This document shows, piece by piece, positions 947 to 36,880 of a stretch of 36,880 nucleotides of DNA. The notes beneath the pieces were generated by a model. The model did no database searches. It was given only the letters and a program-made list of their open reading frames with translations, and was not told where the DNA came from. Made by a program: the position numbers and the translations under genes. The stretch is from Planctomycetaceae bacterium (lineage in GTDB: Bacteria; Planctomycetota; Planctomycetia; Pirellulales; Pirellulaceae): positions 1-36,880 of the forward strand of contig PKCN01000187.1 of the NCBI GenBank assembly GCA_002862205.1, given 5' to 3'. The first letter of the stretch is position 1. Every line of letters begins with the position of its first letter.

Positions 947-972
947 CTGTTAACCGTTCCTGTTAACCGCTG
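947..972. repeat. Tandem duplication, 13 bp x 2
   Basis: Two adjacent copies of a unit beginning CTGTTAACCG, differing only in the last bases. It is one of many short tandem duplications in the window. Confidence 0.7.
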
Positions 973-1129
973 TCGGCAATTAACCAGAGACTCTGAGAGT
1001 TCTCTTTCGAGACTGCGTGAGCCCGGAACTAACCCCCGGGGTCGGGTTCGGGCTGGCGGTCTCGGGAAGAGAACCGAGAGCGCGGCGAATTTGGGGTCCT
1101 GGGTGCCGAAAGGACCGGGGAACCGGGGT

Positions 1130-1172
1130 AAAAACGAAAAACGCCCGCCGGGTGAGATTACCGGGCGGGCGT
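1130..1172 (-). terminator. Rho-independent terminator of tRNA-Asn
   Basis: On the minus strand, ACGCCCGCC (1164-1172 complement) pairs perfectly with GGCGGGCGT over 9 bp. The stem continues after one G-G mismatch with a 3-bp stem and a 6-base loop. It is followed at once by TTTTTCGTTTTT (complement of 1130-1141). It lies about 40 bases past the 3' end of the tRNA gene. Confidence 0.85.
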
Positions 1173-1212
1173 GAACCGTTGTGGCGAACAAAGTTCGCGA
1201 ATTTCAAATCAG

Positions 1213-1285
1213 CTCCCCCGACAGGACTCGAACCTGTGACAAGGTGGTTAACAGCCACCTGCTCTACCAACTGAGCTACAGGGGA
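1213..1285 (-). tRNA. tRNA-Asn (anticodon GTT)
   Basis: The minus strand folds as a complete 73-base cloverleaf. The acceptor stem is TCCCCTG with CGGGGGA (one G-U pair) and discriminator G. The D-arm has GTAGCTCAGTTGGTAGAGC, the anticodon loop is CTGTTAA (GTT, asparagine), and the T-arm is ACAGG-TTCGAGT-CCTGT. CCA is not encoded. It stands alone, with its own terminator and a candidate promoter upstream. Confidence 0.97.
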
Positions 1286-1709
1286 TTGTGATTTATGAGG
1301 GCCTGGCAACGCCGAAACCCTCTCCAATCAGCAAGAAATTTACTAGACGATCCGTTCTCTCGCAAGGGAGGAATGTTTTGACGCGTTTTTCACCTTGGAA
1401 CTCGCTTGGGCCCCCTGCATCACATGAGATTTGGATCTTTCATCAATGACAAAATCTCATCCACCCCACGGCACGTCGCCGGCCAGAAATCACGAACTTT
1501 TTAACCAGTCCAGCGATTTCACGGTACTCTCACAGCCTACTTCGCAGCTAGCGAGATGCAACGAATCGCCTGTCACGCGGGGAGTCTGCGATTTTCGTGC
1601 GTCCTTGGGAGTCGCTGAGGCTGTGGTTAGAGATTCACCGTTCTCGCAGGCCCAAGGTAGTTAGGACGGGCTACTGGTGGTCGGCAACCGGAAAGGGTGC
1701 ACGCTAGGC
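1286..1709. other. Intergenic region upstream of tRNA-Asn
   Basis: About 420 bases between tRNA-Asn and the end of the barrel gene. It holds the candidate tRNA promoter (1337-1365). A 77-codon open frame at 1431-1664 (plus) has no recognisable domain and an unlikely composition, so it is not called. Confidence 0.5.
1337..1365 (-). promoter_or_regulatory. Candidate sigma70-type promoter for tRNA-Asn
   Basis: On the minus strand, TTGCGA (-35-like) is followed after 17 bases by TAAATT (-10-like). The -10 lies about 50 bases upstream of the mature tRNA 5' end. The match is good but untested. Confidence 0.4.
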
Positions 1710-1715
1710 CTAGCG
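1702..1715. repeat. 14-bp perfect palindrome over a stop codon
   Basis: CGCTAGGCCTAGCG is its own reverse complement and includes the TAG stop of the barrel gene. It has no loop and no T-run, so terminator function is doubtful. Confidence 0.5.
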
Positions 1716-3509: not shown

Positions 3510-3527
3510 GCGGTCAGCTTCATCTGA

Positions 3528-3557
3528 AGTTTGAAAGTTACCAGTTTGAAAGTTAAC
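3528..3557. repeat. Tandem duplication, 15 bp x 2
   Basis: Two adjacent copies of AGTTTGAAAGTTACC, the second with one change. It lies between the POTRA and barrel genes. If the barrel gene started at 3614 it would encode the repeat NFQTG/NFQTS. Confidence 0.75.
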
Positions 3558-3603
3558 AGTGACTGAGTGGTCGGAGCCGCGAAGGCGGCGGGGTTGTCTG
3601 ATA

Positions 3604-5058: not shown

Positions 5059-5320
5059 ACTCTTGGAACCAACAGCACGAAATTTTTGTATTCCGGTCAA
5101 TGGAGTCGAAACTCCGTCTACAGTTCCCGGTAACTACCAGTGCAGGTGGGATTGCCACAAGTCGGATTTGCATCGCTGGCAGGTGAATCGGGCCTGGTTT
5201 AACAAAAAATATAAAATTTGCAGACTTTGTCGTTCCACTCAGTTTCACGGCTGGGAGCGTTTCACGAGCGTTAACGTTTCTCGATTCTCGCCGTTTCGCG
5301 ACGGCATTCCGTCAGGTTGC

Positions 5321-5348
5321 CATGAGGCTGATTGCATGAGGCTGATTG
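5321..5348. repeat. Tandem duplication, 14 bp x 2
   Basis: Two identical adjacent copies of CATGAGGCTGATTG. Non-coding. Confidence 0.85.
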
Positions 5349-5357
5349 CCAGGGAGG

Positions 5358-5405
5358 CAGGGTCACAGTCCGTCAGGGTCACAGTCCGTCAGGGTCACAG
5401 TCCGT
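5358..5405. repeat. Tandem array, 16 bp x 3
   Basis: Three identical adjacent copies of CAGGGTCACAGTCCGT, followed by a partial derivative. Perfect identity points to recent expansion. Confidence 0.9.
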
Positions 5406-5549
5406 CAGTCAGGTTACCGTCAGTGAAGAAGACGCGGAGACGGGGAAGTCAGCACGCTGGGTGTTGTAGAGCCTGTTGTCTGAGAGCGACAGCAGAATGG
5501 AACGCAGAAAGGTGCAGCCCGTTTGAGTTCAAGCTTCTGTTGAACTGAG

Positions 5550-5599
5550 CGGTGCCTGTTGTGCTTGGCGGTGCCTGTTGTGCCTGGCGGTGCCTGTTG
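5550..5599. repeat. Tandem array, 19 bp x 2.6
   Basis: Copies of CGGTGCCTGTTGTGCTTGG with a single substitution in copy two and a 12-base partial third copy. Non-coding. Confidence 0.9.
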
Positions 5600-5694
5600 A
5601 GTTCAGTGCAGGACAGAGCGGGTGCATTCCAGTCGCTGGTCGGTTTGAAACTCGTTATTGGAACGAGCAGGGTCTGCAAGGCGAGCGGAGCGAG

Positions 5695-6168
5695 TTATTG
5701 CAACGCCAGTTTTTGCGCGGGCCTGTCGAGCTGCAGGTCCACGCTTTGGACTGGGAGTTCAAGCCAGTCGGTGATCAGCATTCGCTGGACCAGAGGTTCT
5801 TCGAGATGTTTGTGAACAATTTTCATCAGGCGATCACGAATCTGGCTTTGCGTGGGGTCTTCAAGCCATTTTGGATCGACTTGCCTGAGAGTCTGTTCGG
5901 CTGTTTCGCGAATCTGCATTCGCATCATGTGTAGACCTTCTTCGCCGCGTCGCATTTTGGTTGGGTCAATGACTGCATGCAGTTTGAAATGGTAAACCGT
6001 CGTCAGATTATCGACAGGTTGAAATCGATAGCTGCCCATCGCAACGACTGTGGTTTCGAGGTCGCTGAGTCTGGAAACTCGACTTCGCACATATCCAATG
6101 ACCGCCGCATGCACGACGACCATCATGACGATAAGGCAGGCGCCCCAGTAGCGACGAATAAGGTTCAC
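5695..6168 (-). CDS. Single-pass membrane protein with FliL-like domain
   Basis: About 157 residues from the GTG at 6168. The N-terminus NLIRRYWGACLIVMMVVVHAAVIGYV is a short positive head and one membrane helix. The rest is predicted outside the cytoplasm. Its order of elements resembles FliL/stomatin-like domains: a strand (YHFKLHAVIDP), a helical region ending in a run like IRETAEQTLRQ, a second helix (IRDRLMKIVHKHLEE) and a final strand (RMLITDWLELPVQSVDL). No flagellar gene is nearby, so a flagellar role cannot be claimed. The frame is open upstream to 6462, and an ATG at 6276 with AGAGGG six bases before it would add 36 residues. I prefer the GTG because it puts the helix at the N-terminus. 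It is divergent from the lipid kinase gene. Confidence 0.55.
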   Translation of the reverse strand: MNLIRRYWGACLIVMMVVVHAAVIGYVRSRVSRLSDLETTVVAMGSYRFQPVDNLTTVYHFKLHAVIDPTKMRRGEEGLHMMRMQIRETAEQTLRQVDPKWLEDPTQSQIRDRLMKIVHKHLEEPLVQRMLITDWLELPVQSVDLQLDRPAQKLALQ

Positions 6169-6509: not shown

Positions 6510-7544
6510 ATGGATCGTCTAAGCCAGCCAGAGTCGGCTCAAGTGTTGATCTTTACCAGCCCCAAAGCTGGCAGTGGTATCGGTCGTGAACAGGTTCCGC
6601 GGCTGGAGACTTTGCTGCGGGACTTGGGGGTCCATGTGCAGGTCGTTCACGAGGTTGATCAATTGCGTCAGCTGGCGAGGGAGGCTGTTGGAGACGCTGG
6701 ATACGACAACACGATTGTCGTGGCCGCAGGTGGTGATGGGACTCTCTCGCTGGCATGTGCCACACTGTTCCTGTCCGAAGATAGACGCAAGCAGTTGTCT
6801 GGAGACAAGTCATCTGTACTGGCTGGAGACAAGTCATCTGTACTGTCTGGAGACAAGTCAGTAGGGGGTGAACTGACGGTACTGCCAATGCCGTTGGGAA
6901 CAGAGAATTTGCTGGCCAGGCATTTTGGGCAAGTGGCAGACGCCACGGTCGTTCTGGAAACTATTCGCCATGGTCAGGTTTTTCAATTGGATGCGGGGCT
7001 GGCAAATGGCAAGCCTTTTCTCGTCATGGCGACGTGTGGATTTGATGCGGAGGTGGTTCGTGAGATGCATGCGCGGCGTCAGGGACATATCAATCGGTTC
7101 AGCTACTTGGTTCCGATCTTCAATGCCTTGCTGAGGTATCGGTTTCCCAAGCTGAAATTGGTGGTTGATGACAGGGATCTTGGCAAGTGCTGTTGGGTGA
7201 TGAGTTTCAATTTACCCAAGTACGGCGGTGGCCTGGAGATTGAGCCCGATGCTTTAGGAGACGACGGGCTGTTGGATGTGATTGTGTTTGAACGCGGATC
7301 GATCGTGAGCGGGTTACGTTATGTGGCAGGCATTTGGACAGGTCGGCACTTGGATGCCGAGGATGTGACGCGTCTTCGTGGGCAGGACATTCGAGTTGAA
7401 TCAAAGAAACCAGTGGCTTATCAGTTGGATGGTGACTACGGCGGCCAATTGCCGCTGGAAATCACCACTTTGCCTGCTGCTGTGCCGCTACTGATTCCTC
7501 CCGAGGACAAATCGCCTCCCGAGGACAAATCGTGCGAAGCGTAG
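6510..7544 (+). CDS. Diacylglycerol/lipid kinase family protein (DAGK catalytic domain)
   Basis: 344 residues from ATG 6510, preceded by GAAGAG. The frame is open from 6243 but the domain begins just after this ATG. The N-terminal lobe has VLIFTSPKAGSG (~12-23), the nucleotide-binding GGDGTL (74-79) and PLGTENLLARHF (128-139), in place of the usual GTGN/GTAN form. The C-terminal lobe has ATCGFDAEVV and the late YQLDGDYGG motif. Family members use ATP to phosphorylate diacylglycerol, sphingoid bases or related lipids at the membrane; the substrate here is unknown. Odd: between the two nucleotide motifs sits an in-frame repeat (S/A)GDKSSVL (~97-117), and the C-terminus ends in two copies of PPEDKS. 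Both come from tandem DNA duplications. The gene is followed by kdsA on the same strand after 195 bases. Confidence 0.88.
   Translation: MDRLSQPESAQVLIFTSPKAGSGIGREQVPRLETLLRDLGVHVQVVHEVDQLRQLAREAVGDAGYDNTIVVAAGGDGTLSLACATLFLSEDRRKQLSGDKSSVLAGDKSSVLSGDKSVGGELTVLPMPLGTENLLARHFGQVADATVVLETIRHGQVFQLDAGLANGKPFLVMATCGFDAEVVREMHARRQGHINRFSYLVPIFNALLRYRFPKLKLVVDDRDLGKCCWVMSFNLPKYGGGLEIEPDALGDDGLLDVIVFERGSIVSGLRYVAGIWTGRHLDAEDVTRLRGQDIRVESKKPVAYQLDGDYGGQLPLEITTLPAAVPLLIPPEDKSPPEDKSCEA
6798..6860. repeat. In-frame tandem array inside the lipid kinase gene, 24 bp x 2.6
   Basis: Copies at 6798-6821 and 6822-6845 differ at two bases; a 15-base partial copy ends at 6860. The core is GGAGACAAGTCATCTGTACT. 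The unit is a multiple of three and encodes SGDKSSVL/AGDKSSVL/SGDKS. Confidence 0.92.
7497..7532. repeat. In-frame tandem duplication at the lipid kinase C-terminus, 18 bp x 2
   Basis: Two identical copies of CCTCCCGAGGACAAATCG, encoding PPEDKS twice, ending 12 bases before the stop codon at 7544. Confidence 0.92.
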
Positions 7545-8573: not shown

Positions 8574-8638
8574 TTCTGCGGTGTGATCGCCGGCTCAAAG
8601 GTGTGAGTTGCGCAAACCATGTTGATAGCCGTGCCCCG

Positions 8639-8724
8639 GTACTTCTGGTCTGGTACTTCCGGTCCCGGTACTTCTGGTCCTGATACTTCCGGACCGGTAC
8701 TTCCGGTCCGGTACTTCCGGTCCG
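8639..8724. repeat. Diverged tandem array, 14-15 bp x 6, hairpin-forming
   Basis: Six units that begin GTACTT (one ATACTT): 8639, 8653, 8668, 8683, 8697 and 8711. The last two are identical (GTACTTCCGGTCCG); older copies differ and two have an extra base. GGACCGG-TACTT-CCGGTCC at 8691-8709 is a perfect 7-bp hairpin formed across copies. It lies between kdsA and the lipoprotein gene. The minus-strand frames here read like collagen repeats but are artefacts of the array. Confidence 0.9.
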
Positions 8725-8768: not shown

Positions 8769-10646
8769 ATGCGGAAATTGATGAATCCAGTGACACACGC
8801 CAAACGAATTGGGATGCCAGCCAGTCTGATGCTGTTGGTGACACTTGCAGCCATGGTTGCGGTGGTTGGTTGCAGTGATGGTGTGGATCAAATCCGAGCG
8901 ATCGAGCGTCAGCGTCAGGAACGCGTCCAGTCCGGCACCAAAGTCGATCACCTTGGTGAGATGCACGGGTTGCTGTCGAGGCTTGTGGAACTGAACCCGC
9001 AAGAATCGCAACGCGAGATGATTTACCACCTGAACCGTTGGAAACAGGGAAACGCAGCGGCGGACGCCAAGATCACTCCACTGATCAGCACCATCAGTGA
9101 AGTGATCCCCGAGGACAAGTTGCTGGAAATGACCCAGCAACCACTGTTTGTTGGTCCCGACAGCAACCATTTGCGTGATTGTTATCTATTTCGTCAAATC
9201 AGTGAGTGGGTGGATCGTGAGCCTGAGGAAGATCCGCTGCTGGCAGATTGGTTGAATAGAATGGAAGCGAAGTTACCCGAGCAAGATGGGGTCAAATTAC
9301 GAACAGCTGTGCGGCTGTTTGACTGGACGGTGAGAAATGTGGGGTACGAACCACAGCAGCCAGAGAGTAGTTTGCCACCTCATCCACCCTTCAACGGGAT
9401 GACTATCCCCAAGTTCTCCTTGGGCATGGAATTTCAAGGGCCTGGGTATCGACAAACCGACTACGAAACCGTCTGGCATGGGTTAGGGGACTCTTTGCAG
9501 CGAGCAGGGGTTTTCACTCAGTTATGCCGGCAGGCATCGATTGCTGCGTTCGTGCTGGCGACGCAGTCGGATCAGGATGGAAAACTCACTCCATGGAGTG
9601 TTGGTGTTCTGATCGGCGAAGACGTCTATTTGTTTGAGCCGGAGCTGGGCTGTTTTGTGCCGGGGCCTGGTCAGGTTGGCATTGCAACCCTGGGGGAGGC
9701 GAGATCCGATGCGTCCGTGCTGCGGCGTTTGAATGTGGTTTCCTTTTTTGATTATCCGCTCAGCAAGTCTGACATACAGCAATCCATCGCGCTTTTGAAT
9801 GTCACCCCCGAAGCAGTCAGTCTGCGGATGAAGCAGCTCCAGGCGGCCCTGACTGGTGATCGACGAATGACAACGTTCGTGGATGTTGACACCATGGCGA
9901 AGAAAATAGACGCCGTGCCGGGGATCGCAGGGGTCAGACTTTGGGACGTTCCTGTTCTGGCTGCCGTGTATGCCGCTGAACTCGAAGCAGCTGCAAGCCG
10001 CGATCCCTTGCTGAACTTCTGGTCGCGGGCTGCATGGTCCATCATTGAAGACCTGTCAGATAACTCAAAATTGCTGGCGTTAGCGCGATGGCGACATCTG
10101 CATGGACAGTTTGATAAGGATGATGAGGAAGATACTGAGGGCGCTAGAGTGCTTTACCTGCGGCAGCGTGCTCCTGAATTTGAGATTGAAGATCTTGTCA
10201 TCGATGTCGATCTGCAGAAGGCTTATGGGGTACGCCGTGAGCTGGGCATGAGCAACAAGGAATACAACGCGCAGTTGAGTTATGCGCAGGACTTGATGCG
10301 GATGTCAAAGAATGCAGCGACGTTCTGGGTCAGCCTGATTCAATATGAAGACGAGCGATACGACACCGCGCAAACGTGGTTTTCGAAACGTGTTCTGGAC
10401 CCGGAATTGGTTTCACGTCGTGAATTCACCGGCGATGCGCTTTCTCCGTGGCCGCCCTCGGCTCGTTACAACCTCGGTCGCAGCTTGGAGCGAAGTGGCA
10501 AGTTTGATCAGGCGATCGAGCTTTATAAGACGGATGGTGATCCTCAGGAACATGGCAACCGGCTCAGGGCTCGAATGTTGGCGAAGCAGCAGGCGGCGGG
10601 TAAGAACGACGATGCTGATCAGGATCCTGTCCCACCGGAAAAATAA
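8769..10646 (+). CDS. Lipoprotein with transglutaminase-like region and C-terminal TPR
   Basis: 625 residues. A lipoprotein signal has a long n-region, the helix MLLVTLAAMVAVV and the lipobox VVGC (Cys35). Residues ~175-300 resemble a transglutaminase-like fold: LFDWTVRNVGY (183-193), then a putative nucleophile helix around Cys253 (RAGVFTQLCRQAS), then WSVGVLIGEDVYLFEPELG (276-294). In active enzymes this last part carries His and Asp; here the His position is not His and the Asp is Glu, so activity is doubtful. Near the C-terminus (~555-590) is a TPR-like helix pair ARYNLGRSLERSGKFDQAIELY. The end is charged and low in complexity. I know no named family; a periplasmic scaffold or binding role is inferred. 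The ATG at 8781 is another start. Three hairpin-forming repeats begin 5 bases past the stop codon. Confidence 0.75.
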   Translation: MRKLMNPVTHAKRIGMPASLMLLVTLAAMVAVVGCSDGVDQIRAIERQRQERVQSGTKVDHLGEMHGLLSRLVELNPQESQREMIYHLNRWKQGNAAADAKITPLISTISEVIPEDKLLEMTQQPLFVGPDSNHLRDCYLFRQISEWVDREPEEDPLLADWLNRMEAKLPEQDGVKLRTAVRLFDWTVRNVGYEPQQPESSLPPHPPFNGMTIPKFSLGMEFQGPGYRQTDYETVWHGLGDSLQRAGVFTQLCRQASIAAFVLATQSDQDGKLTPWSVGVLIGEDVYLFEPELGCFVPGPGQVGIATLGEARSDASVLRRLNVVSFFDYPLSKSDIQQSIALLNVTPEAVSLRMKQLQAALTGDRRMTTFVDVDTMAKKIDAVPGIAGVRLWDVPVLAAVYAAELEAAASRDPLLNFWSRAAWSIIEDLSDNSKLLALARWRHLHGQFDKDDEEDTEGARVLYLRQRAPEFEIEDLVIDVDLQKAYGVRRELGMSNKEYNAQLSYAQDLMRMSKNAATFWVSLIQYEDERYDTAQTWFSKRVLDPELVSRREFTGDALSPWPPSARYNLGRSLERSGKFDQAIELYKTDGDPQEHGNRLRARMLAKQQAAGKNDDADQDPVPPEK

Positions 10647-10650
10647 TCGC

Positions 10651-10698
10651 AGCTGAGTGACATTCAGCTGAGTGACATTCAGCTGAGTGACATTCAGC
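10651..10698. repeat. Tandem array, 15 bp x 3, each join a hairpin
   Basis: Three identical copies of AGCTGAGTGACATTC begin five bases past the lipoprotein stop. Adjacent copies form AGCTGA-GTGACAT-TCAGCT-type stems, so an RNA of this stretch could fold into successive small hairpins. Confidence 0.9.
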
Positions 10699-10832: not shown

Positions 10833-11429
10833 TTACAGAAGTTGCTCGATGCGAACTTGCGCCAGCTGAGCCGCCAGAGCGGGAAACACTGGATCCACAA
10901 TTCCCACTTCTGCAAGTTGCGTGGGAGACATGGTTGCCGGAATGGGGCAGGATTTCAGCAGTACCAGTTCATCGGCATCAAGGATAGCTGATAGCAAACC
11001 GGCGATGGAGTCTGTCGTGGTGCGCCAGTCGTCAGGGAGTTTGTGGCGAGTGTCACCTGATTTGTCGTGTTGCAGAGGTGCGGAGCGTTGGTGGTAGAAC
11101 ACTTCGGGTGCGATCACCGTGGGCAGGCATTGGATTGTCGGCGTCTCAAACGCTGCTTTCCACTGCGACGGGTTTGTGATCAGCGGCCAGCCAAACATTT
11201 GCGCCACGAAATGTGCGGTCGTCGTCAGCAGGTCAACGCAGGTCCAATGGACCTGTTGTTGATTCAGGGGGTGCAACTGGTCAAGTTCGCGAACCGCATC
11301 AATCAGCTTGCCACCTCCGACGATGATCAGAGTCTGATCAGCGGGATGGGCTGCCAGCCATTGGTTGACTGCTTTTGTCAGGTCAGTTCGCAAAAGCATA
11401 CTGCCACCAATTTTTACGATTCGTCGCAT
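10833..11429 (-). CDS. Amino-acid-kinase family protein, MfnE-like (methanofuran biosynthesis)
   Basis: 198 residues. The N-terminus VKIGGSMLL and LIIVGGGKLIDAVREL are the two glycine-rich motifs of the amino acid kinase superfamily. The TTTDSIAGLLSAILDADELVLLKS stretch near residues 137-160 matches the C-terminal nucleotide-binding region. The protein is shorter than acetylglutamate or aspartate kinases. MfnE of methanogens belongs to this superfamily and phosphorylates the aminomethylfuran phosphate unit of methanofuran. The assignment here rests on the neighbours: it starts 10 bases after an MfnF-like gene, itself overlapping an MfnD-like gene. In planctomycetes and methylotrophs the product would be a methanofuran-type cofactor for formyl transfer in the H4MPT C1 pathway. 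Family is firm; the exact step is inferred. Confidence 0.72.
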   Translation of the reverse strand: MRRIVKIGGSMLLRTDLTKAVNQWLAAHPADQTLIIVGGGKLIDAVRELDQLHPLNQQQVHWTCVDLLTTTAHFVAQMFGWPLITNPSQWKAAFETPTIQCLPTVIAPEVFYHQRSAPLQHDKSGDTRHKLPDDWRTTTDSIAGLLSAILDADELVLLKSCPIPATMSPTQLAEVGIVDPVFPALAAQLAQVRIEQLL

Positions 11430-11439
11430 GGTTCAGCTC

Positions 11440-12447
11440 TTACTGAGATTGATTTGCTTGAAGCCGTGCGACTGCGTACGCCGGGCCGCATCTGGCGATC
11501 TCTTTTCCGAGCTGGTCAGCCAATCGCAGGGCTGGCTGTTCCTGGGGAATCGAAATCAGTGATTCACCATGCCCACTGAGTACCCATGTGTCGTAGCTTC
11601 CAAGGCGCGCGATTGCCTCTTGGATTTGTTGCTGTGCAGCGGCGATGATCTGTTGGGCGAGCGGCTGTGCAAGTTGGATACTGACGGACCTTCGGTCGAG
11701 TCCAATCATTCTGGCCAGGCGGTTGGCTGCCAGTGGGCGTGTTCTGGGTTTGCCGTCAGCCGTGCCACAGTCGTTGGCGTCTTGGGGGGTGTGTCCGAGC
11801 AGCAGCATCGCGTCATCAATTGTTGCAAAAAGTTCGTTCATCACTGGGGTTGGGATTCCATGATAAGTCAGGCTTTTTACCAGACTGCAGACTGGGGTAC
11901 GTCTACAGCCGACATAGACGAGTGCTGATTTGCACAGGCGATCGTAATCGGTCAGAGAATCCGTCGCGACTTTGTGTTCTCTGATTGGGATGAGATCAGT
12001 TGTGGTTGATCCGATATCGATCAACAGGGCATTGGGTGCAATTTCACTGCCAATGAAGTTTGCCAGAGCGTGCCAGTTTGCAGCGGCAACAAGATCCGGA
12101 TTTTGGCGGGCGTGTTCGGCATGATGAAAACAACCGTCAACACCGTAGAAACGAACGTTGCTGATTTCCAGTGTTTTCGCTGCCTGGCAGGTTTGTTGGA
12201 CGATGTGGTCAACGCCAATTCCGCGATCCAGAAAACAGTCTGCCAGTTCGCCAGTCATGGTGACTGCGAGCGTATCGGGTTTGAGGTCGTGATCGAGAAA
12301 GTTACGCTGTAGATCTTCTGTCAGCGTGTTGGCCAGTTTTTCGGGCGTTAACCACATGGCAAATTCACGAGACGCGGCGGTCCCGCAAGAGCTTGCATAC
12401 TTGAGGTTGGCCCCGCCGATATCGGTTCCGAGAACGGGATGCTTCAT
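11440..12447 (-). CDS. Hydantoinase-like H4MPT/methanofuran-pathway protein, MfnF-like
   Basis: 335 residues from the ATG at 12447, with GAGAG five bases before it. A GTG at 12459 that overlaps the upstream stop (GTGA) is the alternative. The N-terminal motif GTDIGGANLKYA and the second motif LLIDIGSTTTDLIP (142-154) place it in the hydantoinase/oxoprolinase-like ASKHA group known as a probable H4MPT-linked C1 transfer pathway protein. In methanogens MfnF joins the furan pyrophosphate to gamma-glutamyl-tyramine. Late motifs are AANRLARMIGLDR and WVLSGHGESL. It sits between an ATP-grasp gene and an amino acid kinase gene with almost no spacing, which fits one polycistronic mRNA for methanofuran synthesis. 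Confidence 0.82.
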   Translation of the reverse strand: MKHPVLGTDIGGANLKYASSCGTAASREFAMWLTPEKLANTLTEDLQRNFLDHDLKPDTLAVTMTGELADCFLDRGIGVDHIVQQTCQAAKTLEISNVRFYGVDGCFHHAEHARQNPDLVAAANWHALANFIGSEIAPNALLIDIGSTTTDLIPIREHKVATDSLTDYDRLCKSALVYVGCRRTPVCSLVKSLTYHGIPTPVMNELFATIDDAMLLLGHTPQDANDCGTADGKPRTRPLAANRLARMIGLDRRSVSIQLAQPLAQQIIAAAQQQIQEAIARLGSYDTWVLSGHGESLISIPQEQPALRLADQLGKEIARCGPAYAVARLQANQSQ

Positions 12448-12455
12448 CGTTGCTC

Positions 12456-13484
12456 TCACACGCTCTGGACAGCCGAGTTGTTGATCCAGATTTCTCCATC
12501 GGGAGTCCAGCGAACGGAGTTGACGGCAGTGCAGCAGGAGACGGGCCCCGTTTCCATGTCAAAGAGTCTGGCTGCCAGGTTACCGTTGATCATGCGACGC
12601 AGTCCGACATAGGATGTCGTCAGGCGAGGATTGATTTCGATCACACAATCTTCGCTGGGCCGTTCCCCGAGTAATAAATCGAGGCCAACAAAACCGCGGG
12701 CCGTTGGAGGCATGGCAACCAGTGCACGGGACGCCAATGCCGTGGCCCTTCGTTGGGCATCTTCGTCCAATGGACCTTCACCGCCGCCGTATTCGCAATT
12801 AGAGCCGGAAAGATCTTGCGAAACAGCTGGCAAAAAAGTGTGTTCGCTGCCAGAGGCGATCAAGGCAATGGAAATGGCACGTCCCGGCATCCAGGCTTGC
12901 AGAATGGTACCTTCAGACAAATCGGCAGACGCCTCGTTGAATGAATCGTAGGTTCTGATTTCCTGAGTACCACATCCGTCGCGTGGTTTGACGACGAACC
13001 TCTGGTATGTCAGCAGGTCCTTTTCCATTCGGCGGTCTGACAGTGTGATGTATGGTGGGTGGGAAACGCCCGCGGTGCTGAGCGTTTTGGCCGTCAGATA
13101 TTTGTCGCTGGCAGTCCGCAGGAAGTCGCCACTTCCTGCAATGACATCGATCCCGCTGGCCCTTAGCATGGCGACAGCTTTGGCAAGGATTCCGTCGCTT
13201 TCGGGAGCCACCAGCAAGGCCGCATCACAAGTCTGGGCAGCGGCGACCCATTGTCCCCACAGCGATTGGTCACGGACGATATTGATGATATCTGTGGTAT
13301 TGCTGGAAAACGTCCCTGCAAAACGCGGGTCCAGGGGAACGACTGTTTCAGCAACTTCGGCAAGGTCAGAGACGATCGACTGCAGCATCGCTGCTCCTTC
13401 ACGTCGTAGACCGGCAGGAATTTCCTCGAGCGTCTGTTCAGCCAGTCCGCCACCACAGACGTATTCTCCGATAAAAATTCGCAT
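12456..13484 (-). CDS. ATP-grasp ligase, MfnD-like (tyramine/tyrosine-glutamate ligase)
   Basis: 342 residues, first gene of the trio. It starts MRIFIGEYVCGGG. The ATP-grasp fold shows a central RFVVKPRDGCG (162-172), the nucleotide-binding loop, LQAWMPGRAISIALI (~195-209), and the Mg-binding VIEINPRLTTSYVG (281-294). MfnD of methanogens is an ATP-grasp enzyme that joins glutamate to tyramine; methylotroph methylofuran is built on tyrosine, and no tyrosine decarboxylase gene is seen here, so the true amine is open. The stop overlaps the GTG form of the next start by four bases. The nearest upstream gene on this strand is sufT, 180 bases away, so the trio probably has its own promoter; I cannot point to one. 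Confidence 0.75.
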   Translation of the reverse strand: MRIFIGEYVCGGGLAEQTLEEIPAGLRREGAAMLQSIVSDLAEVAETVVPLDPRFAGTFSSNTTDIINIVRDQSLWGQWVAAAQTCDAALLVAPESDGILAKAVAMLRASGIDVIAGSGDFLRTASDKYLTAKTLSTAGVSHPPYITLSDRRMEKDLLTYQRFVVKPRDGCGTQEIRTYDSFNEASADLSEGTILQAWMPGRAISIALIASGSEHTFLPAVSQDLSGSNCEYGGGEGPLDEDAQRRATALASRALVAMPPTARGFVGLDLLLGERPSEDCVIEINPRLTTSYVGLRRMINGNLAARLFDMETGPVSCCTAVNSVRWTPDGEIWINNSAVQSV

Positions 13485-14093: not shown

Positions 14094-14121
14094 GAAGATT
14101 TTCCAATGAAGATTTTCCGAT
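14094..14121. repeat. Tandem duplication, 14 bp x 2
   Basis: GAAGATTTTCCAAT followed by GAAGATTTTCCGAT, in the spacer between sufD and sufT. Confidence 0.8.
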
Positions 14122-14199
14122 GAAGCTCATCACGGCGTTCATCCGCCTGGGTTCGCCGTATGAAAAACTGATTGTAGCTGATCGCTGCCATGGAGGCGA

Positions 14200-15629: not shown

Positions 15630-15643
15630 GAAGTCGATGTAGT

Positions 15644-15698
15644 TGAGTGGCACAGTGCTGAGTGGCACGGTTTTGAGTGGCACGGTTTTGAGTGCCAC
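15644..15698. repeat. Tandem array, 15 bp x 3.6
   Basis: TGAGTGGCACAGTGC, then two identical copies of TGAGTGGCACGGTTT, then a diverged partial copy. It lies 44-98 bases past the sufB stop in the sufB-sufD spacer. Confidence 0.9.
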
Positions 15699-15741
15699 CG
15701 TTGTCCGGATCGTTGCCTGAATTCGCACCAGACTCTGAGGT

Positions 15742-20561: not shown

Positions 20562-21782
20562 CTATCGTGGGTACTTCAGCCTGTTCGTTGCTTCAGCCTG
20601 TTCGTTGCTTCCAACCTTAGGCTCGCTGCTATCGACACGCTGGTGGTGAATTTGTTGCAACTGATCAATCGCAGTTCGCATTGCGACGTGATCAATTTCG
20701 TGAACATCAACGGGGTCGCCCACCGCCCGCAGCATGGTGATTGTCAGACGCCCACCAAGGTGTTGTCTGAATTCCTCGAGCCCCTCCAGTAGTCGCTCGG
20801 TTGGCGTCAAGGCTTCGTGCCAAAGTGGGATGCCAAGTTGCGTCAAGCAATTGCAGACCGCTCGCACGTCTTTTTCGGGAAAGCCAAACTTGAGTGAAGA
20901 ATAAATGGTGTCGATGGCGACACCGATGGCGACTGCTTCTCCGTGACGAATTTGATAGTTTGTCAGTGGTTCAAGTCGGTGAGCCGACCAATGCCCAAAG
21001 TCCAATGGCCGCGCTTCGAGCATCTCAAATGGGTCCCCTCCGTGGGTGATGTGCTTGAGGTGCAGCAGGCACGATTGGTGAATGGCGCGTTTTGAAGCAA
21101 TCGCATCACGCTCGCCAATAGCATTCGCCCGGTCACAAAGCCAAGCGAATTCCGTGTCGCTCTTGAGTAACGAAACTTTCACAGCTTCACTGAAGCCGCA
21201 TCTGAAATCACGGTCAGGCAATGTATGCAACAAAGCTGAATCATTGATGACTGCCCAAGGCACAGCGAATGTGCCAATCCAATTCTTCTTTTCAAAGTGA
21301 TTGATGGCGTTTTTGACACCTACCCCCGAGTCAGCCTGGGCGAGCGTTGTGGTGGGTAGGCGAATCAAGCGGATGCCCCGGTGGGCAACGGCAGCTGCAT
21401 AGCCGACGGCATCGAGCATCGCTCCGCCGCCGATCGCTACGATGTAGCTACGGCGATCGAGATTGAGTTGATTGATTTGATTCAGAATCAGGTCCACGGT
21501 GTCAGACGAGTTCTTGATCTCTTCACCGCCCTGGACCAGCACTGGTGCGCAAACCAATTGGACACAATCAGACTGCTCCAATTGCTGTGCGATTCGATCC
21601 GTCGGGTCAGACAGGGCTTGCTCTGCGATCAGCAAAACCTTGGCACATGCTGCGTCACCCGACTCCATCACTGCAAGCAGTTCGCGGAAGTCTTCACGCG
21701 ACACATCATCGGTGACTCGTAATCGATGCACAAATGGCACAGAAAACTGGAGATCGAGCGAGGTTTCAGACGCGTCGGTCAT
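20562..21782 (-). CDS. 3-dehydroquinate-synthase-family sugar phosphate cyclase, EboD-like
   Basis: 406 residues. The NAD-binding GGGAMLDAVGYAAA and the PTTTLAQADSGVGVKNAINH stretch are the hallmark of this family, as are GFSEAVKVSLLKS and the metal-site DFGHWSAHRLEPLTNYQIRHGEAVAIG. The DFGHWSAH form resembles the EboD group more than aroB, which usually has NxGHTxGHA. EboD acts in a multi-gene pathway for a cyclitol-derived product in some bacteria and algae, but no other ebo gene is in view. The last ~9 residues (ATNRLKYPR) come from a 17-bp tandem duplication that shifts the frame; see the repeat at 20574. It is convergent with the dehydrogenase gene, 44 bases apart. Confidence 0.82.
   Translation of the reverse strand: MTDASETSLDLQFSVPFVHRLRVTDDVSREDFRELLAVMESGDAACAKVLLIAEQALSDPTDRIAQQLEQSDCVQLVCAPVLVQGGEEIKNSSDTVDLILNQINQLNLDRRSYIVAIGGGAMLDAVGYAAAVAHRGIRLIRLPTTTLAQADSGVGVKNAINHFEKKNWIGTFAVPWAVINDSALLHTLPDRDFRCGFSEAVKVSLLKSDTEFAWLCDRANAIGERDAIASKRAIHQSCLLHLKHITHGGDPFEMLEARPLDFGHWSAHRLEPLTNYQIRHGEAVAIGVAIDTIYSSLKFGFPEKDVRAVCNCLTQLGIPLWHEALTPTERLLEGLEEFRQHLGGRLTITMLRAVGDPVDVHEIDHVAMRTAIDQLQQIHHQRVDSSEPKVGSNEQAEATNRLKYPR
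20574..20607. repeat. Frame-shifting tandem duplication at a gene 3' end, 17 bp x 2
   Basis: Two identical copies of CTTCAGCCTGTTCGTTG lie inside the last codons of the sugar cyclase gene. As 17 is not a multiple of three, the duplication changes the reading frame. One copy would give NEQAEVPTIV and a stop at 20557-20559. Two copies give NEQAEATNRLKYPR and the stop at 20562. Confidence 0.93.
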
Positions 21783-22874: not shown

Positions 22875-23058
22875 GTTGCTGTGGATTCGAGAAAGGTATG
22901 AGGGCGATACTTTACCGCAGATTTACCTGACAAGTGTCTGGCAGCCGACATTTTCGCAAGTCGGATTGGGGATGCATTGACGACGATGTGCAGCCGTACG
23001 AACAAGTTGGGGGGAGGGAGTTTTTTCGTGGACACGTTATTCTAACCTGACATGGCCC

Positions 23059-23112
23059 GAGTTCAGGACCTGGCATGCCCTGAGTTCAGGACCTGGCATG
23101 CCCTGAGCTCAG
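23059..23112. repeat. Tandem array, 23 bp x 2.4
   Basis: Two identical 23-base copies (23059-23081, 23082-23104) beginning GAGTTCAGGACCTGGCATG, and a partial third. A diverged half copy precedes them. The unit contains the small palindrome CCTGAGTTCAGG across its join. It lies just upstream of the aldo/keto reductase gene and may include part of its 5' region. Confidence 0.92.
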
Positions 23113-25161: not shown

Positions 25162-25218
25162 TTCCGCAGCTTGATTGGTTTGCTGATACCGATCCGGCAT
25201 CAAGCCTGTTGCATCATC

Positions 25219-25278
25219 GGGTGTCACGCCTGAGGTTCGGGTGTCACGCCTGAGGTTCGGGTGTCACGCCTGAGGTTT
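25219..25278. repeat. Tandem array, 20 bp x 3, spanning a stop codon
   Basis: Copies of GGGTGTCACGCCTGAGGTTC at 25219, 25239 and 25259 (the last with TT at its end). The stop codon of rsmH (25264-25266) lies inside the gene-proximal copy, so the array starts in the coding end and extends away from it. Confidence 0.93.
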
Positions 25279-31800: not shown

Positions 31801-32083
31801 CCAAGCGTAAATCTGCTTCGCGTGTTGATTCGTCCGGGCCATGGCAAAAAACGCAGTTCTCGGAAATGATGGATCGAACGTCCTGAGCTAAGTCAACCTT
31901 CGCAACAGGTGCGGTCACCGGATCACTTGCGTGTGCTGGCGTGACAGCCGTCAGCAGAAAGAGCAGCAGGATGCCCAGCACAGGGATGCCCAGCACAGGG
32001 ATGCCCAGCAGCGGGATACCCAGCAGCGGGATGACCAGCACAGGGCTGCATGGAGCGGTGGGGTGGGATTCAAAACGTCGCAT
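28865..32083 (-). CDS. Planctomycete cytochrome-c protein: PSCyt1 - DUF1549 (PSCyt2) - DUF1553 (PSD1)
   Basis: 1072 residues. Signal peptide (h-region ~12-46, cleavage after AHA at 52). PSCyt1 with the heme motif CVFCH (77-81) and [10 protein letters not shown], whose Met could be the axial ligand. PSCyt2/DUF1549 from ~165: [51 protein letters not shown] with a second CxxCH-like CCRCH. A coiled coil (~430-465) and a beta-rich middle domain with possible ligand binding precede DUF1553 ([25 protein letters not shown]). It is likely periplasmic and membrane-linked. It is first in the operon with the DUF1501 gene. Odd: the signal core is a six-unit 15-bp DNA repeat. Confidence 0.93.
31961..32050. 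repeat. In-frame tandem array forming the signal-peptide core, 15 bp x 6
   Basis: Six 15-base units; two are identical (CAGCACAGGGATGCC). On the coding strand they read [30 protein letters not shown], which is the hydrophobic core of the PSCyt protein signal peptide. Confidence 0.95.
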
Positions 32084-33382: not shown

Positions 33383-33446
33383 TCACTGCAAAGCGAGCCT
33401 CGCGGACAGCGGATTCTCTGCACATTTACCCGAAGGGTCACAGGCT

Positions 33447-33617
33447 TCAGGAAGCTTTCAGTTTGGCAGCTTCTTCTTCAAGGCTGGTGATTTCGTTTTC
33501 CAATGCTTTGAGTTCGGCAGCATCGTCAGCTTGCTCACGTGACCCTGACAGGCGTGGTCGCAGGGTTTGCAGTTTCTTGTTGATGACATTGAGTCTTTTT
33601 TTTGCTTTTTTGTCCAT
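33447..33617 (-). CDS. Small coiled-coil protein of unknown function
   Basis: 56 residues from ATG 33617 with AGGA nine bases before. It is very basic at the start (MDKKAKKRLNVINKKL) and ends in a heptad-type coiled coil, AAELKALENEITSLEEEAAKLKAS. The frame is open upstream to 33707 but the clear ribosome site is here. It follows the Mla-like ABC gene by 33 bases, so it is probably cotranscribed. No domain is recognised; a link to the transporter is only positional. Confidence 0.65.
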   Translation of the reverse strand: MDKKAKKRLNVINKKLQTLRPRLSGSREQADDAAELKALENEITSLEEEAAKLKAS

Positions 33618-33649
33618 GCGCTGATTTCCTGCGGAGATGAGGCGGGTTG

Positions 33650-35329
33650 CTAGAATTCGATCAAGGCAATGATGAAGTGAACCAGCAATACATAGAGAGT
33701 CGTCCACAATACCGTGGACGTGATTGCATTGCTCACGTCACTGGCGGATTGCTTGGGAGCCAAACCACGGTAGAAACCAATCGCACCGGTTCCAACGCCA
33801 CACGCCAGATTCTTTAGCATCACCCATCCCCAGCCTTGAGGCCAGCCCCCGTCTGAAGAGAGCAGGTTTCGATAGAAATGCTGTTCCCAGAAAAAAGGCC
33901 CAACATCTGGGTGGGTTGCTGAAAAGCTGAGCATGCTGACAAAGCGAGCCGACGTGAAGGCCATCCATTCCAGAATTGGCGTGGCCAACATGAATGCCAG
34001 AACGATCGGGAGCAGCAGATATAGTCTTGGTTTGACGCCGAGTGTTCGCATCGCATCGATCTGTCCCCCATATTGTTTCACGCCAACATCTGCCGCGACT
34101 GCTGCTCCGCATCGTGCTGCAATCAGGATAGTTGCGAGAACAGGAACAAGAATACGGTAGAGTGCAAAGCCAATCGATGACAGCAGTTCATCGATCAGCA
34201 GTGGTTGGGTGTAGAGCCGGAACGGCAGGAAGCGGAACGTGAAATAGGTTCCTGTGAATCCAACGATCAGTCCCGCCAGGATCAGATAAACCCAGGCGGA
34301 AACGCCGCCAACCAATCGCAGGTAATGAGCAAAGAATCGCAGTCCCCAGCGGGGACGCGGGAAAAGTGGCAACAGGTCATAGGGAAGGCGTAACGCAGCA
34401 ACTACCGTCGACCCCGTTTGTGCAAAGAACGAGTCGATTTTTTCAGCGCTCTGGCCGACAACTGTTTGCGGCACACTCGCTGTGGCAGAAAGCTGGACGG
34501 GGCGCATGCGGGAAGGAATTTGAGGCCAGTCCGATTGAGGGACGGCAATCAGGTGATGGGTTTCACTGTCCAGTAACAGGACTTCGTCGGCAATTGGAAT
34601 CAGCGTTTCGTAATCATGGGTGACGATGATGCTGGTTCGGTGATAGGTGTCATGCGTATGGCGAATCAGTTCTGCTACTTTTCCGCCGCTGGCTGCATCG
34701 AGACCTGAGGTCGGTTCATCGTACAGAATGATGTCAGGATTGGCAGCCAGCGTGCGAGCGATCGCCAGACGCTGTTTCTGACCTCCGCTCAAAGCTGCGA
34801 CCGGTGTCTTGGCAGGCACTCCCAGTTCTTCCAGCCATTGCCGCGACGTGTGGCTGGGAGCGATGGCGCGATCGTTGCGGTGGTCGATCGCAAACTGGAC
34901 ATTTTCAGTCGGTGAGAGTTCATCGAATAGGGCAAATTGCTGAAACACGATTCCGATGCGTGGTTGCTCGGGGAAAACGATTTCAGGTTCTGACGTATTC
35001 GCCGATGTTCCAGTAGTGGTTTGATCTGCCTTTTCGGGTCCTGTTGGGTGCGTTGTTTGAAGATGGTGCCCGCTTTCGATCTGACCTTTCCATTTGATGA
35101 CAGGTCCGTTGCGGGGTGTCAAACCAGCAAGTGTACGAAGCAGGACCGATTTCCCGGCTCCACTGCCTCCGACGATCACAGTGATCTTGCCAGCCGAAAT
35201 TGTCAGATTTGTTTCGGCAAGCAACTCCCGATCACCTGCGTCGATTTTCAATTCATTCAGGCAAAGCGATTTGGGGATCGGCTGTTTGTCGCTTGTCGAT
35301 GGGGCGTGGTCATTGGGGTTGGTTGTCAC
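33650..35329 (-). CDS. Fused MlaF-MlaE-type ABC transporter (ATPase + permease)
   Basis: 559 residues from a GTG that overlaps the previous stop (GTGA). ATPase part (~22-280): Walker A GGSGAGKS (54-61), LSGGQKQRLAIARTLA, Walker B IILYDEPTSGLD, and H-loop IIVTHD. A ~40-residue hydrophilic insert sits between Walker A and the Q-loop (around HHLQTTHPTGPEKADQ). The second half is an MlaE/TTG2B permease: SAWVYLILAGLIVGF, RCGAAVAADVG and QIDAMRTLGVKPRLYLLLP, with several membrane helices. MlaFE move phospholipids between membranes in Gram-negative bacteria; the two are normally separate genes. It overlaps the gene before it by four bases and so is in an operon with it. Confidence 0.92.
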   Translation of the reverse strand: MTTNPNDHAPSTSDKQPIPKSLCLNELKIDAGDRELLAETNLTISAGKITVIVGGSGAGKSVLLRTLAGLTPRNGPVIKWKGQIESGHHLQTTHPTGPEKADQTTTGTSANTSEPEIVFPEQPRIGIVFQQFALFDELSPTENVQFAIDHRNDRAIAPSHTSRQWLEELGVPAKTPVAALSGGQKQRLAIARTLAANPDIILYDEPTSGLDAASGGKVAELIRHTHDTYHRTSIIVTHDYETLIPIADEVLLLDSETHHLIAVPQSDWPQIPSRMRPVQLSATASVPQTVVGQSAEKIDSFFAQTGSTVVAALRLPYDLLPLFPRPRWGLRFFAHYLRLVGGVSAWVYLILAGLIVGFTGTYFTFRFLPFRLYTQPLLIDELLSSIGFALYRILVPVLATILIAARCGAAVAADVGVKQYGGQIDAMRTLGVKPRLYLLLPIVLAFMLATPILEWMAFTSARFVSMLSFSATHPDVGPFFWEQHFYRNLLSSDGGWPQGWGWVMLKNLACGVGTGAIGFYRGLAPKQSASDVSNAITSTVLWTTLYVLLVHFIIALIEF

Positions 35330-36717
35330 TTGCGGGTTGCCTCCATCGAATCATCGTTCTCGACGCGATTGATGTCGGTACGGATGTCGGCGTCCGTGAT
35401 CGCAAGTTGGGTGTTGTCAGGATTGGCAAGGTAAACAATTGGATATGGCATCGCTTCCCGTGAAAGTTCGATTCGGGGTAGTTGCTGCGGAGCGTCATCC
35501 TGATCGGGGATGGCGACGATCCATTGTCGATCCTTACCCAGAATCTGGCTTCTCAGGACCCGGGCGAAGTTTGGATTGATACCCAGTTCACGCGATCCAA
35601 TCAGGTCGTCGCCAATGTTTCGAATCACAGGCTCCAATCGATCAGCGGCCAAATCCAACGCCCGGCGGGCCTCGTCACTACTCCAAACATCTTTCCATGA
35701 ATTCTTCAGACGCTGGTTGTCGACGAGGGATTCTTTCAGGATCTGTCGAACCAGCTGTTTTGCTTCTGGATCGTTCGCGATCACGACCGCTACGTCGGTA
35801 AGTTCCTTGCGAACGTTGGGGTTGGCAGCCACGTCAGCCACAATTCGCTGAATGCTGGTGACGATGTCGTCCATCCGTTCCTCAAACACAGGCACTGCTT
35901 CATTTTCTACGAAGCGAGACCACTCTTCACGCACGAGATCTTTTCGAGGCAGGAGAGGAAGACCATCGTAAGCGGCACGCCAGCCGAAAGACCAAATCGA
36001 GGCGCGGTCCCAGAGCTCTCGCCCAATTTCCTCCGCAGTTGGTTCGCCGTGTTCTCTCACAATGGGAACAATTTCCCGGCGAGCCAGAGGAATCAGTCGT
36101 TCGCTTACCACCTCGTCGTTCCAGCGATCACCCAGTGCCTCAATTTCACCACGATGCCTCTTGACCGAAAGGCGGAATTCCGACTCGATGATCGGAAGCG
36201 AGCGTTTCAGACTGTCCTGGACCAAGGGTACAAAAGCTTTGGACAGCTCCTGACCATGTTCTCTCATGGTGGCCGCCAGGCGAGCCTGAATCTTTGACCG
36301 TGTTTCAGGCGGAAGCATTGTTGCGATTACATCTTCCAAACGGCCACGGTTTCGATGCAAATAGTACTTGCAGCTTTGTGGATCAATGTTGGCAGAGTGC
36401 CATGTCAGAACAGCAGACGGTGAAGCGATGTCCAACGCTGTGGAGTCGGTCGGAAGCTGCGGTGCGATCTTCACGAATCCAACTTGTGTCCATGAACCAT
36501 CCTGCTGCTGAAGGAAGACGGGATCGTGAACTCGCAGTTGCCCTGCAGGAGCATTGATGGGGACTTCCTCGGTTCCACCGAACAAATAGTTCTTGAGCGA
36601 CTCATCCGCTCGGCTGGCGACACGTTGTTGTTCATGGCGTAGAACCGTGAGAACTGAACCGACGGCGACTACCCAGGTCGTGACTCCGATGATTCGCAGA
36701 ATCATTCTTTTCATCAT
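35326..36717 (-). CDS. Single-pass periplasmic helical protein in Mla-like operon
   Basis: 463 residues; ATGs at 36717 and 36714. One N-terminal helix (MILRIIGVTTWVVAVGSVLTVL) anchors a large domain outside the cytoplasm. Around 55-105 is LRVHDPVFLQQQDGSWTQVGFVKI, which could be a diverged small beta-domain like MCE (DPV...VGxV), but I am not sure. The rest is long helices rich in Arg and Glu (LPPETRSKIQARLAATM; VRKELTDVAVVIAND), and a C-terminal part with QWIVAIPDQDD. In Mla systems the gene beside MlaE is MlaD, a one-helix MCE protein. This product has the same topology and place, so it may be the partner that carries lipid. No clear MCE match, so function is inferred. Confidence 0.7.
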   Translation of the reverse strand: MMKRMILRIIGVTTWVVAVGSVLTVLRHEQQRVASRADESLKNYLFGGTEEVPINAPAGQLRVHDPVFLQQQDGSWTQVGFVKIAPQLPTDSTALDIASPSAVLTWHSANIDPQSCKYYLHRNRGRLEDVIATMLPPETRSKIQARLAATMREHGQELSKAFVPLVQDSLKRSLPIIESEFRLSVKRHRGEIEALGDRWNDEVVSERLIPLARREIVPIVREHGEPTAEEIGRELWDRASIWSFGWRAAYDGLPLLPRKDLVREEWSRFVENEAVPVFEERMDDIVTSIQRIVADVAANPNVRKELTDVAVVIANDPEAKQLVRQILKESLVDNQRLKNSWKDVWSSDEARRALDLAADRLEPVIRNIGDDLIGSRELGINPNFARVLRSQILGKDRQWIVAIPDQDDAPQQLPRIELSREAMPYPIVYLANPDNTQLAITDADIRTDINRVENDDSMEATRK

Positions 36718-36831
36718 GTTGATCGCCCCCCCCGGTTCTCATGGATTCTTTGCTGCGCAGACTCGTTACGACCTTGTTGCTCGATGAGCTGTTTCATTGC
36801 TGTCGCAGCGATTTTTCCTGTCGGCCGATCT

Positions 36832-36880
36832 CAGTTGTCGTTGCTGCACTTGACAGTTGTCGTTGCTGCACTTGACAGTT
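36832..36880. repeat. Tandem array, 22 bp x 2.2, running off the window
   Basis: Two identical copies (36832-36853, 36854-36875) beginning CAGTTGTCGTTGCTGCACTT, and the first bases of a third. More copies may lie beyond the edge. Confidence 0.92.

Follow-up and report, generated by a model that had tools for sequence, protein, structure and literature searches.

Abundant short tandem arrays in a Pirellulaceae genome, probably young minisatellites born by slipped-strand misalignment

Tandem arrays in the analysed window

The window, i.e., the whole stretch of 36,880 nucleotides that was analysed, carries Omp85 and POTRA genes, a DAGK-like gene, KdsA, a 3-dehydroquinate synthase-like gene and a gene for a PSCyt/PSD1 protein, with short tandem arrays lying both inside genes and between them. 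A search with Tandem Repeats Finder (TRF; score of at least 50, period 9-60, overlaps merged) revealed 17 arrays, whereas 50 Markov-1 shuffles averaged 0.12 and never exceeded two. The density is therefore far above chance in the comparison that a preliminary description of this DNA, made from the sequence alone, had asked for. Sixteen of the 17 places listed in that description correspond to a TRF array. The exception, place 947, falls under the TRF threshold; it shows no more than two matches of 9-10 bp, offset by 13 bp. One array absent from the earlier list was added. The units called were 14-24 bp long, except in two compound arrays. All features below were called by TRF; translation or Pfam is named where it was also used, and strand is given where one was assigned.

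3528..3560: 15-bp unit, 2.2 copies, between the Omp85 and POTRA genes
5321..5349: 14-bp unit, 2.1 copies, spacer
5358..5408: 16-bp unit, 3.2 perfect copies, spacer
5537..5600: 19-bp unit, 3.4 diverged copies, spacer
6799..6860, + strand: 24-bp unit, 2.6 copies, in frame in the DAGK-like gene, repeat LSGDKSSV (translation)
7497..7532, + strand: 18-bp unit, 2 perfect copies, in frame close to the end of the DAGK-like gene, PPEDKS twice (translation)
8635..8724: compound array with 14/29-bp units (8635-8723 plus 8636-8724), spacer after KdsA
10650..10698: 15-bp unit, 3.3 perfect copies, spacer, directly after a stop codon
10769..10825: 17-bp unit, 3.2 diverged copies, spacer
14094..14125: 14-bp unit, 2.3 copies, spacer
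15643..15702: 15-bp unit, 4.0 copies, spacer (called coding through a short predicted ORF)
20574..20611, - strand: 17-bp unit, 2.2 perfect copies, 3' end of the 3-dehydroquinate synthase-like gene (Pfam)
23045..23112: 23-bp unit, 3.0 copies, spacer or short predicted ORF
25217..25277: 20-bp unit, 3.0 perfect copies, gene border
31962..32049, - strand: 15-bp (45-bp compound) array, hydrophobic repeat at the N-terminus of the PSCyt/PSD1 protein (translation)
33917..33949, - strand: weak 17-bp array, 88% match, intragenic, the one added by TRF
36832..36880: 22-bp unit, 2.2 perfect copies, truncated by the contig end

The site of array 6799..6860 varies in length among relatives, and a 24-bp pair occupies the site of array 31962..32049 in relative G010. 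The array at 33917..33949, whose length is unchanged in G010 and G017, may be due to chance or be old. Two tandem units of the end array (36832..36880) were sought elsewhere in the genome, and no second place was found. The presence of short tandem arrays is thus confirmed, and they are unusually dense. Head-to-tail units of ca. 10 bp or more, in numbers beyond chance, were found in the window and in the genome as a whole, and the arrays belong to a known kind, minisatellites.

Density and unit size in the genome and its relatives

With 200 bp trimmed off each stretch end, TRF found 189 arrays in 820 kb of the genome, or 23 per 100 kb (the untrimmed stretches hold 200 arrays in 837 kb). The window, with 4.6 arrays per 10 kb versus a genome mean of 2.3, ranks third among 41 stretches. 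In E. coli, a bacterium of similar GC, one array was found in 150 kb (0.7 per 100 kb); the density is far above that value, in line with the earlier statement that it is unusual for a bacterium. It is peculiar neither to this stretch nor to this genome: relatives hold such arrays too, with unit sizes that mostly agree, at varying density. Sampled congeners contain 3.6 to 27 arrays per 100 kb, and 49 loci from further afield, almost all of them Planctomycetota, average 10; the samples behind these figures are uneven (17-176 kb each, from contig starts, contig interiors or around KdsA), and the density table leaves out G002, G007, G014, G025 and G029.

Prokaryotic minisatellites, as described by Subirana and Messeguer (PMC6749651), are likewise scattered tandem units of 10-30 bp, both genic and intergenic, and likewise yield amino-acid repeats where unit length is divisible by three; some of the satellites are thought by these authors to be local errors of DNA duplication. 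By TRF, 35 arrays with four or more copies were found in 0.837 Mb of our genome, about 42 per Mb, while the bacterial maximum in Table 1 of that paper (species with more than 20) is 23.0 per Mb and the value for Rhodopirellula baltica is 4.06, both obtained there with another program and other criteria. Short-unit families in the same source often share sequence, whereas none recurring was seen here. The same paper describes Methanosarcina, with up to 89 short-unit satellites per Mb, as likewise very rich in short-unit arrays and variable several-fold within one genus, though these are archaea of lower GC. No earlier description of such density in Pirellulales was found in the open-licence papers searched.

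Unit size was assessed from exact tandem duplications with units of 7-500 bp. In 837 kb there were 135 with units of at least 11 bp; the unit measured 12-18 bp in 111 of them and never exceeded 30 bp, by a method that discards a longer-period run if it is half-overlapped by a shorter one. A single shuffle control (437 kb, units 7-60) contained no exact duplication above 10 bp. In spacers, the size distribution of units climbs to a maximum at 14-15 bp and then declines, units of 8-12 bp being rarer than those of 14-16 bp. Longer units do occur: ten inexact TRF arrays of the genome have units of 28-54 bp, and single exact units of 36, 51, 167 and 169 bp were found in other genomes.

Placement and sequence of the units

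Spacers make up 13% of bases, yet they contain 94 of the 189 arrays. The number of arrays per 100 kb of spacer is 147 in convergent, 97 in co-directional and 81 in divergent spacers. Of 54 arrays in co-directional spacers, 52 lie inside the spacer range; 18 of these are in the fifth adjoining the upstream stop and three in the fifth adjoining the downstream start. The claim that many arrays adjoin stop codons thus stands in part, as a genome-wide lean towards the upstream stop. Because genes were called with a crude, purpose-written hexamer gene finder, the split between coding and spacer sequence is approximate; likely spacer arrays 3528, 15643 and 23045 were marked coding, the first through an extended ORF. 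Inside called genes, unit length is divisible by three in 57 of 64 exact duplications, versus 23 of 64 in spacers (seven border cases are omitted from this count).

The conservation of reading frame bears on whether the arrays could be false tandem copies made by short-read metagenome assembly. At 40 contig starts, eight arrays begin in the first 130 bp (1.2 expected), as such errors would predict, but real long arrays would themselves cause contigs to end within them. Many copies are diverged, and arrays are also present in chromosome-level records of relatives: four chromosome records and one 8.6-Mb contig (L016, L025, L026, L029 and L072) contain 17 arrays in 104 kb, with 11 in the 20.8 kb of L029 and none in L026 and L072. 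Artefacts would not preserve reading frame in 57 of 64 cases; assembly artefact was therefore rejected as the main cause, and we consider it highly improbable. Arrays do hamper assembly: at two contig starts, those of C3 and C7, the sequence begins within one 15-bp array, on opposite strands.

The unit list and k-mer tests revealed no unit sequence shared across places that would define one dispersed family. Since units differ from place to place, their cause must be sought in a recurring local process and not in a single mobile repeat, as the preliminary description had proposed. Judged by eye, two pairs of units have a longer word in common (e.g., CAGCAACCTTGAC in L083 and L092). The most strongly enriched 5-mer in the genome's units, CACAG, was present in 25 of 200 arrays (6.7 expected). 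It was rejected as a shared motif, with seven occurrences versus 7.4 expected in 282 arrays of other genomes, a set in which some arrays are counted twice (L011 is the same stretch as L139/L140). None of the genome's notable 5-mers recurred in these 282 arrays. CAG was mildly enriched both in the genome (135 of 200 arrays versus 108.5 expected) and elsewhere (165 of 282 versus 137.3). Hairpin potential did not differ between arrays and their flanks, either for 93 spacer arrays (p 0.32) or for 84 gene arrays (p 0.81).

When the 17 arrays of the window were sought as a tandem pair (at least 80% match) anywhere in 12 stretches of DNA from relatives, none was found, the 45-bp compound array being a hard query and coverage of the arrays varying from one relative's stretch to another. 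Some of the spacers concerned do carry arrays in relatives, though different ones. We considered whether the arrays might be binding sites, terminators or other regulatory elements maintained by selection. The tendency of arrays in co-directional spacers to lie close to the upstream stop, and the fact that certain spacers bear arrays in several species, would agree with such a role. Yet the units are unrelated from place to place, the 5-mers notable in this genome are not those of its relatives' arrays, the same tandem pair never recurs, and scarcity near starts is equally explained by selection against disruption. A function of this kind is very unlikely; the arrays show no sign of one, and the idea of a purposeful "system" received no support.

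Origin of the arrays

The ancestral single copy is clearly readable at one array only, 3528-3560, whose 15-bp unit is present once in G010, G017, L006 and L007. In L006, AGT stands at the unit start and again just beyond the unit, a 3-bp match at the junction. Because a degenerate 15-bp pair is found at this site in G008, the duplication may be older than it looks. Junctions were examined in clean cases, defined as the 34 of 95 exact two-copy arrays without a relic third copy. Microhomology of at least 3 bp was found in 17 of the 34, versus 2.2 expected from simulated random duplications, and its mean length was 3.6 bp (0.76 bp in the simulation). The other 17 cases had 0-2 bp. The share with at least 3 bp was 10 of 16 in genes and 4 of 15 in spacers, where about one would be expected in proportion.

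We conclude that the arrays are probably young minisatellites, born independently and continually by slipped-strand misalignment. In this model, as DNA is being synthesised, either the nascent end or a displaced flap would detach and re-pair slightly further back at a few matching bases, so that the roughly 12-18 bp between would be copied twice. A loop of roughly 12-18 bp exceeds what MutS-type mismatch repair removes. Once two copies are present, pairing between them would allow slippage to 3-10 copies, and substitutions would gradually erode the arrays. Selection would purge duplications that break reading frames or strike promoters or start sites, which in this proposal is why arrays concentrate in spacers, chiefly after stop codons, and why intragenic survivors are mostly multiples of three. 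We infer that polymerase slippage or flap misalignment was the actual event; the 17 clean cases with 0-2 bp of microhomology, and the spacer cases, of which only 4 of 15 have at least 3 bp, count against it. Slippage would also be expected to make the shortest spacings the commonest, whereas the spacer peak lies at 14-15 bp. The peak at about 15 bp and the several-fold differences in density among relatives are not explained by the slippage model.

Comparable events are known. In PMC2884548, short-homology-dependent illegitimate recombination is described, and small variable genome segments are attributed to replication slippage. Those events are likewise short and occur between repeats under the RecA threshold, but they concern segments of 20 bp or more that vary between strains, whereas duplications of ca. 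15 bp with a size peak are found here as standing arrays.

Duplications caused by flap-nuclease loss are likewise short and tandem with few matching bases at their junctions, but the flap-nuclease domain is retained here: it was detected in Pol I of 16 of 16 genomes. MutS_V was present in 22 of 22 genomes (the G008 copy is a contig-end fragment), and ExoVII and RecJ were each present in 15 of 15 (the G013 ExoVII is a contig-end fragment). Since these presence checks show all four (Pol I flap nuclease, MutS, ExoVII and RecJ) to be retained, their loss was rejected as a cause of the density. SbcD gave a match in 15 of 15 genomes, none above the cut-off; since dense and sparse genomes are alike in this respect, SbcD does not account for the density difference.

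Staggered double-strand breaks that are filled and joined with the help of Ku, so that the overhang is duplicated, would produce duplications of fixed size and low microhomology, a pattern that some of the clean cases show. None of 15 genomes, this one included, yielded Ku (PF02735), while the same search found it in the Bacillus subtilis control, and we regard Ku-dependent end joining as extremely improbable. Of the suggestion that the arrays reflect "a special form of slippage or end repair", slippage is thus the better fit, on the excess of junction microhomology in the clean cases as a whole though not strongly in spacers, while the Ku-based form of repair does not agree with the data. The unit peak at ca. 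15 bp leaves room for the slippage to be of a "special form".

A duplication of set length could also account for the peak. Here, a displaced flap, a repair patch or a staggered nick, in each case ca. 15 nt long, would be filled and sealed with microhomology optional, and slippage would enter later, merely multiplying copies. The 14-15 bp peak in spacers, the lack of exact cases above 30 bp and the half of clean cases with 0-2 bp of microhomology agree with it. The other half, with at least 3 bp, greatly exceeds the 2.2 cases expected and argues against it; retention of the Pol I flap-nuclease domain means that simple loss is not the cause, and the process is no more than a candidate. We consider this explanation rather unlikely. 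In the same vein, and equally tentatively, Pirellulales may have a process with a built-in length, yielding units mostly of 13-18 bp at a rate that shifts fast between related species. If so, a physical determinant (e.g., a staggered cut, a displaced flap or a repair patch), and not chance pairing of nearby repeats, would set the length, and the process would have given rise directly to the half of the clean cases in which microhomology is 0-2 bp.

Whichever step fixes the size of the unit, the arrays of this lineage are many, often perfect and narrow in size, and their densities differ several-fold between relatives. For these reasons the lineage could suit the study of minisatellite birth and unit length, and is potentially a good natural system in which to learn how minisatellites are born and what sets the length of their unit.

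Array density in the window and in related genomes

The window (contig C47) belongs to a source genome of 7.77 Mb (451 contigs, 98.7% complete). Among named records, the nearest matches to the window KdsA are for the most part metagenome genomes that carry the label Rhodopirellula or Rubripirellula. Pfam matches were obtained for 19 of 20 window proteins scanned, all of ordinary kinds, and one tRNA-Asn was the sole RNA family above threshold in the window.

Examples of window proteins identified by Pfam
Omp85 and POTRA proteins
Diacylglycerol-kinase-like (DAGK-like) protein
KdsA (DAHP synthetase I family)
Two SufBD proteins and an ABC ATPase
3-dehydroquinate synthase
MraW
PSCyt/PSD1 planctomycete proteins

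A putative short inverted repeat with arms of about 9 bases was spotted by eye at 847-867, upstream of the tRNA-Asn region. Three adjacent genes with AA_kinase, Hydantoinase_A and ATP-grasp_3 domains (10833-13484) resemble a cofactor-synthesis cluster, which may be connected to methanopterin-type C1 metabolism.

At 16 of the 17 places where the preliminary description had listed tandem arrays, an array was found by TRF (score of at least 50). The window contains 17 such arrays, versus a mean of 0.12 per shuffle in 50 shuffles. Sampling of the source genome covered 41 stretches, namely the window plus the opening 20 kb of each of contigs C1-C40. After trimming, this gave 23.0 arrays per 100 kb (189 in 820 kb), of which 94 lay in spacers, 84 within called genes and 11 at borders. 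E. coli, in comparison, had 0.7 per 100 kb (1 in 150 kb), and pSymB had 4.0 (2 in 50 kb). Relatives were counted in the same way but sampled differently.

Arrays per 100 kb in 15 genomes of the same genus
G001, 3.6; G008, 5.0; G004 and G009, both 5.1 (20 kb each); G006, 5.2
G011, 6.6; G015, 6.8; G010, 8.7; G003, 10.8 (one contig only); G018, 11.7
G005, 12.2; G012, 12.3; G017, 18.6; G016, 21.5; G013, 27.3 (51 kb)

Nine genomes from other families of the order (17-59 kb each) ranged from 0 to 20.4 arrays per 100 kb, and 49 further loci, nearly all from Planctomycetota (one, L076, carries the title Deltaproteobacteria), had 10.1. From these sampled densities we conclude that the source genome is rich in arrays relative to E. 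coli of like GC and lies near the top of the range, and that the wider group has dense arrays too, to a lesser degree.

One and the same perfect 15-bp array of 8.2 copies opens both source contigs C3 (L084:1-123) and C7 (L088:1-123), though on opposite strands; the two contigs therefore probably abut over one longer array that the assembler failed to cross.

Unit size, reading frame and position

Exact periodic runs, each maximal and with two or more copies of a 7-500 bp unit, were listed, which bypasses the TRF score threshold. Among 135 runs with units of at least 11 bp in 837 kb, 111 had units of 12-18 bp and none exceeded 30 bp. The exactness criterion is biased against long units; among inexact TRF arrays, 10 of 200 had units of 28-54 bp. 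Relatives' exact runs mostly covered the same sizes, apart from one case each at 36, 51, 167 and 169 bp. In spacers and at spacer borders, 50 of 71 runs had units of 13-17 bp (median 15).

Exact runs in spacers by unit size
8 bp, 6; 9 bp, 4; 10 bp, 3; 11 bp, 3; 12 bp, 3; 13 bp, 7
14 bp, 11; 15 bp, 16; 16 bp, 7; 17 bp, 6; 18 bp, 3

Spacer counts thus go up and then down, with no steady drop from the shortest units. Decay does not appear to explain the scarcity of 8-12 bp units, because short units should remain exact longer.

Within called genes, 57 of the 64 exact duplications had a unit length divisible by three, versus 23 of 64 in spacers. The DAGK-like gene carries an in-frame 24-bp array (6799-6860), translated as LSGDKSSV/LAGDKSSV, and an in-frame 18-bp pair near the C-terminus (7497-7532). 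In a PSCyt/PSD1 protein, the hydrophobic stretch at the N-terminus (31962-32049) is made of amino-acid repeats, and a distinct 24-bp pair sits at this spot in relative G010. An exception to the frame rule is a 17-bp pair at a gene 3' end (20574-20611). Within co-directional spacers, arrays lay preferentially toward the upstream stop and tended to avoid the start, which is the pattern to be expected if arrays are not tolerated at promoters and start sites.

KdsA of G018 (C3:554377-555249, L147/L148) is lengthened in frame by about 20 residues inserted mid-protein, where TRF at score 30 found no tandem repeat.

Origin of the duplications

The 15-bp unit at 3528-3560 is double in the window and single in four relatives; G008 has a degenerate pair. 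In L006, one of the four single-copy relatives, AGT is already present at the unit start and directly after the unit, equal to the 3-bp junction overlap. Of 95 exact two-copy arrays in the source genome, 34 had no relic third copy, and 17 of these had an overlap of at least 3 bp, versus 2.2 expected from simulated random duplications. Clean cases with such an overlap made up 10 of 16 in genes but no more than 4 of 15 in spacers. The signal from microhomology, though real, is thus mixed, and it is stronger within genes, where other constraints may act.

None of the 17 window arrays recurred as the same tandem pair (at least 80%) in 12 stretches of relatives. Some shared spacers had different arrays in some relatives and none in others: after the gene at 8781-10646, for example, both G005 and G007 carry arrays as the window does, and in spacer 5100-5695 the same holds for G010, G017, L007 and L009. 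The top 5-mer of source-genome units did not recur in other genomes' arrays, and no hairpin excess was found at arrays. Two arrays in called genes on different contigs (L083:11676-11726 and L092:16657-16702) have the word CAGCAACCTTGAC in common in their units, which may mean that common descent or a gene family links a few of the arrays.

We read these data as minisatellite birth, in which short duplications would arise at many places and the resulting arrays would then expand by slippage, decay and pass a selection filter. Slipped-strand misalignment is the best-supported event, with flap misalignment as a close variant. End joining through Ku is an unlikely source, since no Ku gene was found in any of 15 genomes of the genus and its kin, the source genome included. 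Matches to SbcD (TIGR00619) were found in all 15, every one under the curated cut-off, so standard SbcCD may be missing as well as Ku. The few repair genes tested offered no cause for the high duplication rate. This reading does not account for the unit peak at about 15 bp or for the several-fold density differences among relatives.

Table 1 of PMC6749651 gives up to 89 minisatellites per Mb for Methanosarcina and, for bacteria, a maximum of 23.0, with 4.06 for R. baltica; the source genome has about 42 per Mb with four or more copies (35 in 0.837 Mb, TRF), a rough comparison, as programs and criteria differ. Minisatellite-rich prokaryotes are already known; in the source genome the density is unusual and the unit-size peak unexplained.
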